Made by a program: the position numbers and the translations under genes
DNA from: Halobacterium salinarum DSM 3754
GTDB taxonomy: Archaea > Halobacteriota > Halobacteria > Halobacteriales > Halobacteriaceae
NCBI RefSeq assembly: GCF_008124605.1
Contig: NZ_VRYN01000002.1
Span: forward strand, 124,001 to 188,000
Direction of reading: 5' to 3'
DNA length: 64,000 bases
Shown: positions 36,032 to 41,947 of the stretch, in pieces
Layout of the letters: each line of letters begins with the position of its first letter
Position numbering within the stretch: position 1 is the first letter of the stretch
The notes under the pieces: model-generated
Database searches by the model: none
The model's input: the letters and a program-made list of their open reading frames with translations, nothing else
Told to the model about the DNA's origin: nothing

Positions 36032-36092
36032 GTCCGCCGCCCATGAGTGCGTGTATCATGGGCACAGACAGAGTGGGCACCAACAGCGAGGG

Positions 36093-38471
36093 GTGTCGCG
36101 CGTGACGCTCGAAGACACGCTCCCGGACTGGGTGCGGCGGAGCTACGTCCGGAAGTTCAGCGTGCTTGCGGCCGTCTTGATCGTTAGCATCGTCGTCACC
36201 GGTGTCGTCACGCAGACCGCGGTCTCGAATCAACTCACCGACCAACAACAGGCAACGCTGCTGACGAACGCCGACCAGGAGGCCGGATCGCTAGAGCAGT
36301 GGGTGCAATCCCAGCGCTCGACGGTCCGCACGCTCTCGAAACACCGCGGCCTGACCGCCGACAGCAACGCCGCGGTTCGCCAAACGCTCGCCACGGAGCG
36401 GGAGTTCCTCCCGCCGGAGGTCGCACACCTCCACTACGTCGGCCGGCAGAACGGCAGCATACGCGCCAGCACCGACCGGCAACTCGAGGGCGCGGGCATC
36501 GCCGCCACGAACATCGTCTGGCCACAGGAGCAGGCGTTCTCGGACGTCTCGTTTGAGACGCCCGACGCGGTCGTTCAGACCTGGATGTACACCGACGACG
36601 GCACGCCGTCGGTCGCCTACGCGTCCCCGGTCCCCGAGGAAGACGCGTTGCTCATCGCGGTGGTTCGGACCAGCGAGCGCGCACAGCGGTTCACGAGCGC
36701 GATCAACGGCACCAAAACCACGGCGGTCGGCGACACCACCGGGGACGTGTTGTTCGACCGCAACGAGTCGGCGTTCCTCACGCAGTACCAGAGCATCGGC
36801 GGCAGTGGGGTCATCGAAACCATCGAGTCCCAGGACCGTGGCACGGTCGTCACCGAGGACACGATCATCGCGTTCGCGGCCGTCCAGGACGACGCCACCA
36901 ACTGGGTTGTCGTCAAGGAGACACCCAAATCGGACGCGCTGGCCATCGCGAACAACGTGCAAACGAACATCTGGGTGCTGTTGGGGCTGACCCTCGTCGG
37001 TCTCGTCGGCTTCGTCGCGGTGGTCCGGGCGGGCTTGATCGGCTCGCTGCGCGAGATCACCACCCAGACGGCCGCGATCGCCGATGGGAACCTCGACCAG
37101 GAGATCCAGGACAACGGCCGCATCGACGAGATCGGGCGGGTTCGGTCGGGGTTCCGCGACATCAAATCGTACCTTCAAACCGTCGAAGGGCAGGCCATCG
37201 CGCTCTCCCAACAGGACTTCGACAACGACGTGCTCGACGACGAGGTGCCCGGAACCCTCGGAGAGTCGCTCACGGCGATGCAGACGGATCTGGAAACGTT
37301 CATCGAAGACCTCACCGATGCCCGCGAGGAGGCCGAGCGCTCGCAGCGAGACGCCGAGCAGTCCCGCGAGGAGGCCCAGGCGCTTGCCGATTCGCTGGAG
37401 CGCCAGGCCGAACGCTTCAGCACGCAGATGCAGCAGGCGGCCGACGGCGACCTCACACAGCGCCTCGATACGGACGTCGACCGCGAGTCGCTGGCGCAGA
37501 TCGCCACGGCGTTCAACGACATGCTCGTGCAGCTGGAAGCCCTTGTCGACCGGATCCAAGCCACGGCCAACGCCGTCGACGACAGAACCCACGCGATGTC
37601 CGCATCAACCGACGAGATCGAACAGTCCAGTATGTCGGTGGCGAAAAGCATCGAGCAGATCTCCGCCGGCGCGGAGAACCAAAACGAGAAGCTGACCGCT
37701 GCCGCCGGCGAAATGACGGACCTCTCGGCGACCGTCGAGGAGATCGCGTCCTCCTCGAACAACGTCGCCCAGCAGGCCGAGGACGCGGCGGCGATGGGCC
37801 AGGACGGACAGGCAGCCGCGACGGACGCCATCGCGGAGATGGACGCCATCGAATCCAAGGCCACGCAGACCGTCGAAGAGATGCAGTCCCTCCAGGAGGA
37901 GGTCGGCCGGATCAGCGACATCGTCACGATGATCGACGACATCGCGTCCCAGACGGACATGCTCGCGATCAACGCGTCCATCGAGGCCGAGAACGCGAGC
38001 ACCAGCGGGGACGGGTTCGCAGTGGTCGCCGACGAGGTCAAATCCCTCGCCGAGGACACTGCGACCGCAACCGACGAAGTCGAATCCCTGATCGCGGAGG
38101 TCGAGGCATCGACGAGCGCGCTCGCCGAGGACATGTACGAGATGCGCGACCGCGTCGGCGACGGACAGGACACCATCACGGACACCGCCGCGCTGCTGGA
38201 GGACATCGTCGATCGCGTCGAAGACGCCAACGCGGGCATCCAGTCGATCAACGACGCGACCGAAGACCAAGCGGCGTCCGTCCAGGAAGCCACACGCATG
38301 GTCGAGGAGGTCGCCAGCGTGAGCGATCAGACGGCCGGCGAAGCCAGCAACGTCTCGGCCGCCGCCGAAGAGCAGACCAGCGCCATCCAGGAGATCTCCC
38401 AGAGCGCGCAGTCACTGCAAACCCAGGCCACGGAGCTCCTGGATCGAGCCGAACAGTTCGACACCTCGTAA
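36093..38471 (+). CDS. Htr-type methyl-accepting chemotaxis/phototaxis transducer
   Basis: 792 aa from GTG 36093. TM1 (about 22-41), an extracellular sensor domain of about 245 residues (dCache-like in size), TM2 (about 288-311), HAMP repeats with Gln/Glu-rich coiled coil, and the signalling tip with SQTDMLAINASIEAENA. Methylation-type Gln/Glu pairs flank it. It signals to CheA/CheW; the ligand is unknown. Size matches the about 790-805 aa Htr proteins of H. salinarum, but I cannot assign the number. A GTG at 36051 is also in frame, but those codons (AGA, CAT, TAT, AGT) are unlike coding sequence here. Confidence 0.92.
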   Translation: MSRVTLEDTLPDWVRRSYVRKFSVLAAVLIVSIVVTGVVTQTAVSNQLTDQQQATLLTNADQEAGSLEQWVQSQRSTVRTLSKHRGLTADSNAAVRQTLATEREFLPPEVAHLHYVGRQNGSIRASTDRQLEGAGIAATNIVWPQEQAFSDVSFETPDAVVQTWMYTDDGTPSVAYASPVPEEDALLIAVVRTSERAQRFTSAINGTKTTAVGDTTGDVLFDRNESAFLTQYQSIGGSGVIETIESQDRGTVVTEDTIIAFAAVQDDATNWVVVKETPKSDALAIANNVQTNIWVLLGLTLVGLVGFVAVVRAGLIGSLREITTQTAAIADGNLDQEIQDNGRIDEIGRVRSGFRDIKSYLQTVEGQAIALSQQDFDNDVLDDEVPGTLGESLTAMQTDLETFIEDLTDAREEAERSQRDAEQSREEAQALADSLERQAERFSTQMQQAADGDLTQRLDTDVDRESLAQIATAFNDMLVQLEALVDRIQATANAVDDRTHAMSASTDEIEQSSMSVAKSIEQISAGAENQNEKLTAAAGEMTDLSATVEEIASSSNNVAQQAEDAAAMGQDGQAAATDAIAEMDAIESKATQTVEEMQSLQEEVGRISDIVTMIDDIASQTDMLAINASIEAENASTSGDGFAVVADEVKSLAEDTATATDEVESLIAEVEASTSALAEDMYEMRDRVGDGQDTITDTAALLEDIVDRVEDANAGIQSINDATEDQAASVQEATRMVEEVASVSDQTAGEASNVSAAAEEQTSAIQEISQSAQSLQTQATELLDRAEQFDTS

Positions 38472-38935: not shown

Positions 38936-39202
38936 TGCTGGGGTAATCACACCTTCACCCAGTGGTGGACCGGACGAGTCGCCGTCCGAGGGGCACGGAG
39001 ACGCCGAGTTGTCGTACGAGCAGTGCACTTGGCTCGTCGAGCGCCCACAGGACACTCTAAACGAGTCTGGGAGTTATGTACAGAGCCCAGAGCAGCCCGT
39101 AGGCTCCCTTCGAGTTGAGTTCCGCTACTTGCTCGCTCTTTCTGTAGATCACGACGTGATCCAATCTTGGCAGGCAATCACCACGATCGAGTCCGGAGTG
39201 TA
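38936..39202 (+). pseudogene. Possible truncated gene remnant at the island edge
   Basis: A frame without ATG or GTG near its beginning runs about 88 codons to TAA, with haloarchaeal-looking composition (PDESPSEGHGDAELSYEQ, then VEFRYLLALSVDHDV). Only a TTG at 39009 could start it. Residue use is more protein-like than surrounding random frames, and codon bias fades towards the A+T-rich side. It could be the tail of a gene cut by island insertion. This covers most of the 386-bp stretch 38892-39277, in which otherwise only promoter sequence for the flanking genes is seen. Confidence 0.25.
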
Positions 39203-39277
39203 ATCTGGGACGTGATTAGTAGTAATAGAAAAAGAAGCTTCCACGATCTCTGAGAAAGTACTCTTGACGAGGCTGCG

Positions 39278-39472
39278 ATGGACGCCCTTGACGAGAACAC
39301 AAAGACCGCCGCGGTCCTAGCTGCCTGCGAGCACGCACGTCAGGACCGCCGGGCGAAGGAGAAGGCGTTGGAGTATCCCGATATGACGCCGGAGCTTGCT
39401 AAGGTTTTGAGCACCCAGATGGTCAGCCTCAACTACTGTGTAGAAACGAAAATCGACGTGGTACAGAGCTAA
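39278..39472 (+). CDS. Hypothetical small protein on the island
   Basis: 64 aa, charged and soluble (MDALDENTKTAAVLAACEHARQDRR...). A GAGG stands four bases before the ATG, and an A+T-rich promoter-like stretch (AGTAATAGAAAAAG) near 39217-39233 lies about 50 bp upstream. Predicted mostly helical. No family recognised. Its TAA overlaps the stop of a short minus-strand frame. Confidence 0.5.
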   Translation: MDALDENTKTAAVLAACEHARQDRRAKEKALEYPDMTPELAKVLSTQMVSLNYCVETKIDVVQS

Positions 39473-39558
39473 GATTTGGGGTCGTCCAGATGGCTCTCTA
39501 AGGACTCAATTGCTCTTTTCTGGGCCTCCGCCAGCTTCTCAATCTGTTCCCGAAACAT
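39469..39558 (-). CDS. Short coiled-coil ORF or detached gene tail
   Basis: 29 aa (MFREQIEKLAEAQKRAIESL...), strongly helical heptad-like sequence. It is in the same frame as, and 51 bases beyond, the TGA of the membrane protein gene at 39610, separated by a second TGA, so it may be the former C-terminus of that protein rather than a free gene. Convergent overlap with the 64-aa gene. Confidence 0.3.
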   Translation of the reverse strand: MFREQIEKLAEAQKRAIESLESHLDDPKS

Positions 39559-39609
39559 CTCATTCCGACTCTGAGGGCTTTTTTCCGTACTTTCCGAGCG
39601 TCACCGTCC

Positions 39610-40005
39610 TCACCAGCCACCGTTGGAGTCTGATAGATTGATGAAAATAAGTTTCAAGAGCACCCTCAAGAGGCCGATTTTCGATGTATTTAACTCATAG
39701 ATTTTGTTGGGTGTTGCAATTCCCAATACGCTATTCCCTACCGAGTAGTTCTCCGTGAGGCTCTCGAAATACTGGATTTTGTAGATCTCCTCGTACAGCG
39801 CTCGCCGAAGGGCGTGTACCTCTCTCTTATTCTCTTCCTCTTTGGGCTTCAAACGGCTCTGTCGATCTTTTTCAGTTTCGCTGACGAGTTTTTCTGTTTG
39901 GTCGGCATACTGCGCAGTCAGGGAAGCGAGCAAGACTGTTGCGGAGGCCGCACAGATTGAAGCTATCTGCCCTGCTATCTCGAAGAGTCCTCCTATGGCC
40001 GCCAC
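39610..40005 (-). CDS. Hypothetical membrane protein on the island
   Basis: 131 aa from GTG 40005. An N-terminal hydrophobic region (about 4-30, IAGQIASICAASATVLLASLTA) is followed by a basic/acidic coiled coil (EKDRQSRLKPKEEENKREV) and a soluble C-terminus. The frame is open for 32 more codons upstream to about 40101 (ATT CAG GAC AGA...), adding a lysine-rich cytosolic start and one further hydrophobic stretch, but with no standard start codon; the true N-terminus may lie there. No family recognised. Confidence 0.5.
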   Translation of the reverse strand: MAAIGGLFEIAGQIASICAASATVLLASLTAQYADQTEKLVSETEKDRQSRLKPKEEENKREVHALRRALYEEIYKIQYFESLTENYSVGNSVLGIATPNKIYELNTSKIGLLRVLLKLIFINLSDSNGGW

Positions 40006-40357
40006 TATTGCAAGAATCCCCCTCCCGGCAGTGAGCAGAAAAGCCGTATACCGAAGATATCGCTCCTTAGGGCTCTTCTTGCCATATTTTCTGTCCTGAA
40101 TTTATTAGAATACTACATGTCAAGTTACCGTAGTTTGCTAACAGGACTTAATGAATCTATCCTCTCTTGGAAATTTTTCTACTTTAACTCTCACAGTAGG
40201 TCTCCAATCAATAGCTTCGCCTACTGGGTAGCTTGATGCTTACCGCGACCATGCCAGCGATACGGTGGCGGCCGAAGCACGTCGCGTCAATGGCCCGATT
40301 CGGTCGGGATAAAATATCTAATCTATAGGAATGAAGCCAGCGTTCCTGCCCCTTAAT

Positions 40358-41338
40358 TCACTTCCGAGCAGAATCCGTACCAAACAGTTCTTCCAGAATT
40401 TGCGTCAGCCTCGCTCTCATGCCGTCAAGTTCCTCTTTTGTAGCTTCTCCCGACTTGTGGTGGCCCATCCATCGTCTCTCGGCTCTATTGAGCGACTTGA
40501 TCCTCGAGATCGACTTCTGCGATAGTTCGCCAGTGTCCTGTACCTCGCCCAGAATCGAATTGCCCGAAGCGAAGTAGTAGAGATCGCCATTCTTCTCCTG
40601 CTGTATGATATCTACGTCTTCTTTCTCTTTAAGGAACGAGATGAGTGCCCACTCTATCGCGTGAATATAGCTGGAGAGAGCGGGATGGAGCAAGCTGTTT
40701 CTATAACACTCGTCGCCCTCGTGAAGATGGTGTCTTACTTCTTCGCCCCATTCAGCTGACTGAAGTTCAGAAACAAGCTCAGTTGGTAGAGGTTCGAGAC
40801 CCGGGGTAGAGCCACCATCCTGCATTGATTGGATGAACGACTCAATTCTAGAGACATTGTGCCGATCTTGAGGAGTATCGTGATGGGTCACCTCGTAGTA
40901 GGGGATGATTGGATTGTCCCCAGCGAACGTCTCAATTACAACCCGGTCAGATAATGCCTCAAAGCGGATTGGGCTGGGCGTATACTTGTTCTTCTCCTTA
41001 TCAGAAGTCCCCGCACCAGGCCGTTTGGTGACCTGCTGGATAATATCTCCTGAGATGTCTACGTGGAACGAGTGGCTCGAATCACGGGGTTTCTCTTCTA
41101 GAAAGAAGCTAGTGAGTTTGGAGTGCTGTTTCTCATCCAATTCCATGTAGAGATAGACATCTTTCGTGTGCCTACTGGAAATCTCGTCTTTCTCTTTCTG
41201 ATATTCAAATTCCCACATATTGTCTTCTGGGTTTACTTTTATATCACAAACATGAAGTATATGCGGCCTCTCATCGAAAACTCGATGTCCGGGGATGAAA
41301 TTATCTGACCTAATCGAGACCTGCTTCGTGATACCCAT
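40358..41338 (-). CDS. Hypothetical island protein with HEPN-like C-terminal region
   Basis: 326 aa. The N-terminal 150 residues are mixed alpha/beta and unrecognised. From about residue 195 the protein is all-helical: YRNSLLHPALSSYIHAIEWALISFL, then RAERRWMGHHKSGEATKEEL and a final amphipathic helix. Helix-R-x4-H-helix with a preceding polar helix is the HEPN pattern (R-R-W-M-G-H), seen in RNases of toxin-antitoxin and abortive-infection systems. That reading is inference from a short motif. Low-GC codon use unlike the flanks. A CTTTTAAAT box 27 bp upstream supports ATG 41338 and leaderless expression. Confidence 0.65.
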   Translation of the reverse strand: MGITKQVSIRSDNFIPGHRVFDERPHILHVCDIKVNPEDNMWEFEYQKEKDEISSRHTKDVYLYMELDEKQHSKLTSFFLEEKPRDSSHSFHVDISGDIIQQVTKRPGAGTSDKEKNKYTPSPIRFEALSDRVVIETFAGDNPIIPYYEVTHHDTPQDRHNVSRIESFIQSMQDGGSTPGLEPLPTELVSELQSAEWGEEVRHHLHEGDECYRNSLLHPALSSYIHAIEWALISFLKEKEDVDIIQQEKNGDLYYFASGNSILGEVQDTGELSQKSISRIKSLNRAERRWMGHHKSGEATKEELDGMRARLTQILEELFGTDSARK

Positions 41339-41360
41339 ACAGTGTATTCTAGCGCTGGTC

Positions 41361-41369
41361 TTTTAAATC
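41361..41369 (-). promoter_or_regulatory. TATA box of the HEPN-like gene
   Basis: CTTTTAAAT on the plus strand (ATTTAAAAG in the gene's direction), centred 27 bp before ATG 41338; the best TATA match in the window. Confidence 0.65.
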
Positions 41370-41493
41370 ATGTCAGTCGTCTATGTGATAGAGCGTCCGT
41401 GATGCCGACTTTCGCCTGCTGCGTATCTCGATGCTCCCCGCCCCCGTGCCAACGAAGCGTCGAGAGCTTTGAGGCCGACCCTGACCGGACGCG

Positions 41494-41523
41494 GCCCATC
41501 GGGGCGAGCGCCCCGCGATGGGC
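41494..41523. repeat. Imperfect inverted repeat (hairpin)
   Basis: GCCCATCGGGGCG is answered after two bases by CGCCCC-GC-GATGGGC: 13 paired positions with a two-base bulge. As RNA the loop would be very tight, so pairing may open to a larger loop. Confidence 0.6.
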
Positions 41524-41580
41524 TGTATGTAAAGGGGGGTTGGTTGCACTTTCATCTTTACACCCCCACGCAGTCTACCA

Positions 41581-41602
41581 GTTTCACGGTACCCCGTGAA
41601 AC
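41581..41602. repeat. Perfect 9-bp inverted repeat with 4-base loop
   Basis: GTTTCACGG TACC CCGTGAAAC. Perfect arms; the form fits a terminator-like hairpin, an operator, or an element end. Just downstream, CTCTTCGAAGAG at 41624-41635 is a perfect 12-bp palindrome; upstream, TGTAAAG (41528) and CTTTACA (41556) form a further pair. Confidence 0.65.
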
Positions 41603-41873
41603 CAGGTCCCCGACTCCCCGAGGCTCTTCGAAGAGATACGCTCCCGATTCGGCTGTCTGCGGGCGTAACAGACGACTCAGAGACTCACGCTGACCACCTC
41701 CGCGAGCCAGAGTTGGCGCGCGTCAGTCGGATACGGCGAGACGCCGCAGCCCGGTGCGTGTTGGTATCCGATTCAGACGTTCCCTTGTGGCACCCCTGGT
41801 TCCCGTATACACAGGTAGTAGAGAAGCATAGCTCGCGCTCCTGAGTTGGACGCGATTTAGGAAGGAATCGAGT

Positions 41874-41947
41874 GGGCGCTGCAGGATTTGAACCCGCGGC
41901 ATCTTGGTCCGAAGCCAAGTGCTCTGTCCAAGCTGAGCTAAGCGCCC
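41874..41947 (-). tRNA. tRNA-Arg(TCG)
   Basis: On the minus strand GGGCGCT...AGCGCCC forms a 7-bp acceptor stem; D arm GCTC/GAGC, anticodon stem CTTGG/CCAAG with loop CTTCGGA (anticodon TCG, reading CGA), and T arm with GGTTCGAATCC. No intron. The CCA end is not encoded. A GTTTAAG box lies 28 bp upstream. The A+T-rich island begins on its 3' side. Confidence 0.96.

Follow-up and report, generated by a model that had tools for sequence, protein, structure and literature searches.

The R-x4-6-H motif is the active-site motif of HEPN domains, and RNase L, RloC and PrrC depend on its residues for their activity (PMC3710099, section 6). The same 2013 survey describes the HEPN families as poorly conserved between one another, and gives N, D or H as the usual residue following the motif arginine, a typical and not a universal feature (PMC3710099). 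Ymh (PF09509) is listed there as HEPN, with a conserved motif, and occurs with N-domains of the AbiJ-NTD/AbiTii type, including fusions to AbiJ-NTD1 and AbiTii. Like P0001, the protein described in this work, Ymh proteins have a helical C-terminal domain with an R-x4-H motif, their haloarchaeal members being about 295-330 aa long, and N-domains common to Ymh and the P0001 family are found in two lineages. The Ymh motif is RNPxxH, in contrast to RxWxxHH in the P0001 family, and no profile similarity between the two is detectable.

Abortive-infection HEPN proteins of the AbiJ type, as outlined in the survey, join a C-terminal effector to exchangeable N-domains (AbiJ-NTD1 to 5, AbiTii), as the P0001 family does; P0001, however, matches no such Pfam or PADLOC model, and its N-domains appear different. 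HepT, of the HepT/MntA pair, has in common with P0001 the R-x4-H pattern and, by structural comparison (VIA-align Z up to 11.2), the HEPN fold; its motif is given as RX4HXY, with an adenylylated tyrosine, and the MNT signature as GSX10DXD (PMC7641770). RnlA (RNase LS) and Csm6 (Z 8.0 and 9.1) also carry a C-terminal HEPN RNase behind another domain, but P0001 has no recognised CARF domain or Dmd/RnlB partner, and no known fold could be assigned to its N-domain. Searches of the open-licence PMC literature on HEPN, Ymh and haloarchaeal defence listed no description of the RxWxxHH family.

The gene for P0001, encoding a variable N-domain followed by a HEPN-like C-domain, spans positions 40358-41338 of the window, by which we mean the whole 64 kb stretch of DNA analysed; the assembly carrying it amounts to 2.36 Mb in 40 contigs, and its haloarchaeal nature is evident from the relatives found. 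The initial annotation had placed a protein here, and a genuine open reading frame of 326 aa, with homologues in the same frame, fills the interval; the strand, left unsaid at the time, is the minus strand, which we add as a correction. The start codon aligns with the start region of a homologous protein, L007.

The gene was also said to lie on an island and to have the best promoter of that island. A patch of about 2.7 kb (39200-41870), between a transducer gene (36051-38471) and a tRNA-Arg (TCG) predicted by ARAGORN (41872-41947, minus strand), features a GC content of 49-55%, versus about 67%, and a third-position GC of 0.54, versus 0.86-0.89 in three flanking genes. It adjoins the 3' side of the tRNA gene, and its outline is drawn from composition and from comparison with a relative (G012). 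The TATA-like hexamer TTTAAA (41362-41367, minus strand) lies 29 nt upstream of the P0001 ATG; this is its single copy in the window, against 0.45 expected from shuffling, and no comparable box precedes the other two ORFs of the island, which supports the claim of a best promoter as far as sequence goes. Its spacing fits the position expected of the box for a leaderless haloarchaeal transcript.

Of the other two ORFs, one (39278-39472, plus strand) is a shortened remnant of a DUF7692 gene (8.6e-8); two longer DUF7692-like proteins, sharing 42% identity, are encoded near relatives of P0001, both on the minus strand (L037, 2222-2569; L042, 10732-11019). The second (39610-40101, minus strand) lacks a clear start codon; its product would have two hydrophobic segments, with a tail that is charged and looks helical. 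Small, unrelated membrane proteins are likewise encoded beside the relatives at L033, L039 and L042, the last one giving a weak 8xMP match (1.8e-5).

Family models were of little help in classifying P0001. The sole Pfam match, DUF7545, was rejected, being below its cut-off (E 0.067), as was a mycoplasma nuclease model of NCBIfam (20 bits, the cut-off being 225). No PADLOC model matched the protein, which is absent from the PADLOC listing, and no match to the Ymh profile (PF09509) was obtained up to an E-value of 10. A weak match of the C-domain alone to phrog_2039 (1.4e-4), a family of unknown function present in one of 116 haloarchaeal genomes, that of the window itself, was not taken as evidence.

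The C-domain, proposed to be an RNase effector, takes up about residues 180-326 (40361-40801, minus strand). An alignment of this region, A1, was assembled from 13 rows, omitting L014, the same protein as L004. Removal of the near-copies L013 and L015 left 11 non-redundant members, with a mean identity of 37%, in which 12 of the 143 columns never vary; a single ten-column motif accounts for five of these 12 (hypergeometric P 3.5e-4). The motif reads R288-R-W-M-G-H293-H294-K-S-G297 (40448-40477, minus strand), the invariant positions being R288, W290, H293, H294 and G297, and the R288-x4-H293 pair is kept in all 13 rows. The RRWMGH pattern quoted in the initial annotation corresponds to residues 288-293 and is an exact R-x4-H, conserved beyond chance. 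The residue following the motif arginine is R, H or V in the rows of A1.

An AlphaFold2 model of the C-domain, obtained from six rows (the window protein and L016-L020), reached a pLDDT of 83.3 and a pTM of 0.81. Its core helices (25-40, 44-67, 101-119 and 128-146 in A1 row numbering) adopt the four-helix arrangement of the HEPN type, so that the C-terminal helices anticipated from the sequence are present in the predicted structure; R288 belongs to the final turn of core helix 3, which H293 immediately follows. When the model was compared with solved structures by VIA-align, the HEPN protein 2hsb ranked first (Z 12.9 over 115 residues, 2.6 A), a score to be read with the caveat that helical models often reach a Z of about 14 through arrangement alone. 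It was followed by the sacsin HEPN domain (Z 11.7), HepT (11.2), Csm6 (9.1) and RnlA (8.0), with archaeal HEPN proteins also among the matches. HEPN appears in the title of 13 of the first 41 rows; most of the remaining ones we take to be members of the superfamily, in part by identifiers given in the survey, and the first row which, to our understanding, is unrelated is a hemerythrin, at rank 42 (Z 7.1). In a Foldseek search with the same model, ranks 1-9 were HEPN or HEPN-like entries, with probabilities up to 1.00 and no E-value below 0.02; the full-length model likewise gave none below 0.001. The HEPN group to which 2hsb belongs usually lacks the motif histidine (PMC3710099), and this match is therefore informative on fold only, not on mechanism.

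Profile methods did not link the C-domain to any named HEPN family. None of the HEPN Pfam models matched any of the 13 rows of A1, and a search of the PDB with the A1 profile found no HEPN chain. Comparison by hhalign with nine Ymh domains gave a probability of 0.19, lower than the best of 30 shuffled controls (5.0); these profile comparisons rest on few, divergent sequences. Similarity as weak as this is what the survey describes between HEPN families, and the case is therefore built on the fold as predicted, the motif and the domains with which the N-domain is partnered. Predicted fold and motif agree, a four-helix bundle with R288 and H293 placed at the end of helix 3, with HEPN structures leading both structural searches, and not the missing bundle or the distant R and H that the initial annotation had named as refuting it; they support the HEPN reading of that annotation: the C-domain is, on the model, HEPN-like and belongs to a family without a name in Pfam, NCBIfam and PADLOC. 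The R-x-W-x-x-H-H proteins make up an apparently unnamed HEPN family with a motif of its own, adding a HEPN type missed by these three resources.

The N-terminal half had been reported as matching nothing recognisable. This holds for Pfam, NCBIfam, PADLOC and PHROG, none of which provides a convincing family, but not for haloarchaeal proteins: residues 1-172 (40823-41338, minus strand), the proposed sensor, match the L007 protein of genome G169 from the start methionine onwards (36% identity, BLASTP 8e-33), and the C-terminus of that protein is a Ymh domain (PF09509, E 1.4e-20). With a profile of this N-domain, matches were obtained in three of 392 genomes, including the window's own; one of them, in G387, is a partial match (L046), leading into a Ymh-like domain with the motif RNPLSH. 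A second exchange was observed in a relative belonging to the genus of the window, L002, the N-terminal 100 residues of which match the Ymh proteins L087 and L088 at 30-31% identity. One of the eight Ymh loci, L090, was left out of this swap comparison and of hhalign. No profile link was found by hhalign between the N-domain of P0001 and L007 (type A) and that of L002, L087 and L088 (type B), and the two types were therefore kept separate; type B also shows a weak similarity to L006.

Further N-terminal forms precede the same C-domain in other relatives: a DUF2321 zinc ribbon in two (1e-12 and 3e-13), a 420-aa form in one and another type in seven, the DUF2321 type and the seven-member type each forming one group in the tree. 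P0001 is thus a composite protein with an exchangeable front, since various N-domains are found on the RxWxxHH HEPN and two of them also on Ymh: it is built of two domains, and its N-domain has recombined with a second HEPN family. In the full-length AlphaFold2 model the pLDDT stays below 50 over residues 1-179; no fold was therefore assigned to the N-domain, and its role as a sensor is proposed on the basis of architecture. Similarities to ubiquitin hydrolase 7 and others, proposed by a profile search of the PDB, had E-values of 0.05 or worse and were attributed to chance.

It is conceivable, though we hold this broader reading only tentatively, that haloarchaea possess a plug-in immune platform, in which several unrelated N-terminal sensors (those of P0001, L002, the 'PDELxV' type and the DUF2321 zinc ribbons) are exchanged among two or more families of HEPN RNases, RxWxxHH and Ymh being devoid of detectable mutual sequence similarity. 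The infection cue and the killing module would then evolve independently, each N-domain reading a different viral signal. As one front half is found on two HEPN types unlike in sequence, chimeras could test whether the N-domain alone sets the trigger, a general question for abortive-infection proteins; archaea offer a setting in which single-gene antiviral systems have been little studied.

For P0001 itself, the reading that we regard as probable is that of a single-gene, two-domain abortive-infection RNase, made of a variable sensor and a HEPN effector. The C-domain, of about 140 residues, would be a HEPN RNase, probably dimeric, in which R288 and H293, perhaps with H294, may cut RNA without a metal. 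The N-domain, of about 170 residues, would act as a lineage-variable sensor or targeting part, keeping the RNase inactive until it encounters a sign of infection, which is probably some component of a virus. Once triggered, the HEPN part would cut cellular or viral RNA, virus multiplication would be blocked and the cell would become dormant or die. RNase activity, dimerisation, autoinhibition, a viral trigger and a benefit in defence are all properties that we infer for P0001. No partner gene conserved across the neighbourhoods of the relatives emerged, hence the proposal of a one-gene system. Besides fold, motif and the exchange of N-domains with Ymh, the low-GC setting at a tRNA spot and the ATPases near some relatives, described below and selected by eye, are counted in favour of this reading; the missing profile link to a known HEPN family, the R, H or V after the motif arginine, the poor N-domain model, the absence from PADLOC and the housekeeping-like surroundings of several relatives count against it.

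Alternatively, P0001 might be the toxic half of a toxin-antitoxin or addiction system of two genes that stabilises the island, the antitoxin being an RNA or, for example, the product of the 39610-40101 ORF. HEPN domains are indeed common as toxins of such systems (PMC3710099), and the ORF in question, with its two hydrophobic segments, lies about 350 nt downstream on the same strand. By BLAST, however, this ORF has no relative in 13 other neighbourhoods, and an N-domain of about 170 aa, varying between relatives, is not what is expected of a bare toxin. A pair of the HepT type is further disfavoured, because none of the island ORFs was recognised as an MNT nucleotidyltransferase and the tyrosine of HxY, adenylylated by MntA (PMC7641770), is replaced in P0001 by a lysine at H+2 (H293-H294-K295), besides the presence of the extra N-domain. 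On balance, we consider an addiction pair unlikely.

Less likely again is a non-catalytic C-domain, binding RNA or nucleotides in the manner of MtlR or of nucleotidyltransferase-fused HEPN domains, which would make P0001 a regulator. Structures of both these kinds match the model (3c8g, Z 8.5; 1jog, Z 8.7), and HEPN domains devoid of the motif probably bind RNA, according to the survey (PMC3710099). Non-catalytic HEPN families, however, lose the R-x4-H pair, whose invariance in 13 of 13 rows speaks against this reading.

P0001 might also serve a mobile element, as a superinfection-exclusion gene of islands, plasmids or proviruses. The spread of the protein family is patchy: with the full-length sequence as query, relatives were detected in two of 26 genomes at the level of the taxonomic family and in 12 of 392 at that of the order, its own included; the C-domain profile matched in 11 of the 392 order-level haloarchaeal genomes; and a class-wide sample added one further genome. 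Plasmid records gave two matches, the additional sequence being Halapricum desulfuricans pHSR-Bgl01, and the Haloferax elongans copy adjoins a viral-looking cluster, in which one ATPase has a terminase match (8e-9). Against this reading, scanning of viral contigs confirmed no relative, none was found among phage records, and a structural search of viral proteins gave nothing with an E-value below 0.001. Moreover, no integrase was recognised among the ORFs of the island, and a search of the whole window for att-like direct repeats, matching the tRNA end over 13 nt or more, found none. The patch is possibly a relic or the outcome of a recombinational swap, and we place service to a mobile element below the two preceding alternatives, as quite improbable.

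That the resemblance of the C-domain to HEPN is only that of some other helical bundle, as the missing sequence-level link and the ease with which four-helix bundles match one another might suggest, is very improbable, given that HEPN structures top Foldseek and its VIA-align second look before the step down to hemerythrin, that core helix 3 ends in the R-x4-H motif, and that the N-domain is paired with a true HEPN domain elsewhere.

Defence-type genes were noticed near several relatives of P0001. A PifA-like KAP ATPase (1.3e-124) adjoins L034, and Dsr1-like ATPases (2e-24 to 3e-40) adjoin L015, L040 and L041; L040 and L015 are near-copies, and L043, a near-copy of L041, has no Dsr1-like ATPase among its neighbours. 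An OLD/Gabija-like ATPase (2.4e-31; L037, 6613-8760) lies 20 nt from the Ymh-HEPN gene of L007 (L037, 8781-9770), and the two, the latter with an N-domain of the P0001 type, are a candidate two-gene defence operon. Several relatives, such as L032 and L038, are located among apparent housekeeping genes. The seven neighbour proteins compared here were selected by eye, as were two further sets of ten, one of them from the tRNA-Arg spot described below, and no enrichment for defence genes is therefore claimed. Near the Haloferax elongans relative, a run of small genes (L036, 10646-16282) resembles a provirus: besides the ATPase matching the terminase profile, another gene matches phrog_2095 (1.6e-10), and the other eight genes tested gave no match. 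At L015 (1-400), a second annotated HEPN domain-containing protein is found about 3 kb from the relative carried by the Halapricum desulfuricans plasmid.

The tRNA-Arg (TCG) spot was also inspected in eight genomes of the same genus, where ten genes, picked by eye, were tested. Restriction-type genes were found in three: a C5 DNA methylase (1.3e-62) in G014, a type I restriction HsdR along with a YgjP-like gene in G017, and a protein with PLD/NgoFVII-type matches in G009. Two small ORFs without a Pfam match occupy the spot in G011, and the remaining genomes of the eight feature no restriction-type genes there. Given the restriction-type genes at L078, L082 and L083, this spot is possibly a hotspot for defence genes in the genus. 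In G012 the order of the tRNA-Arg and a trkA-like gene is kept, with 5.8 kb of different DNA in between, so that no clean empty site was seen and the ends of the patch are unproven. In G009, G010, G013 and G018, the tRNA-Arg and a ubiA-like gene matched as two separate segments, spaced about 0.4 to 2.7 kb more widely than in the window, which suggests that insertions have occurred on the far side of the tRNA gene as well.
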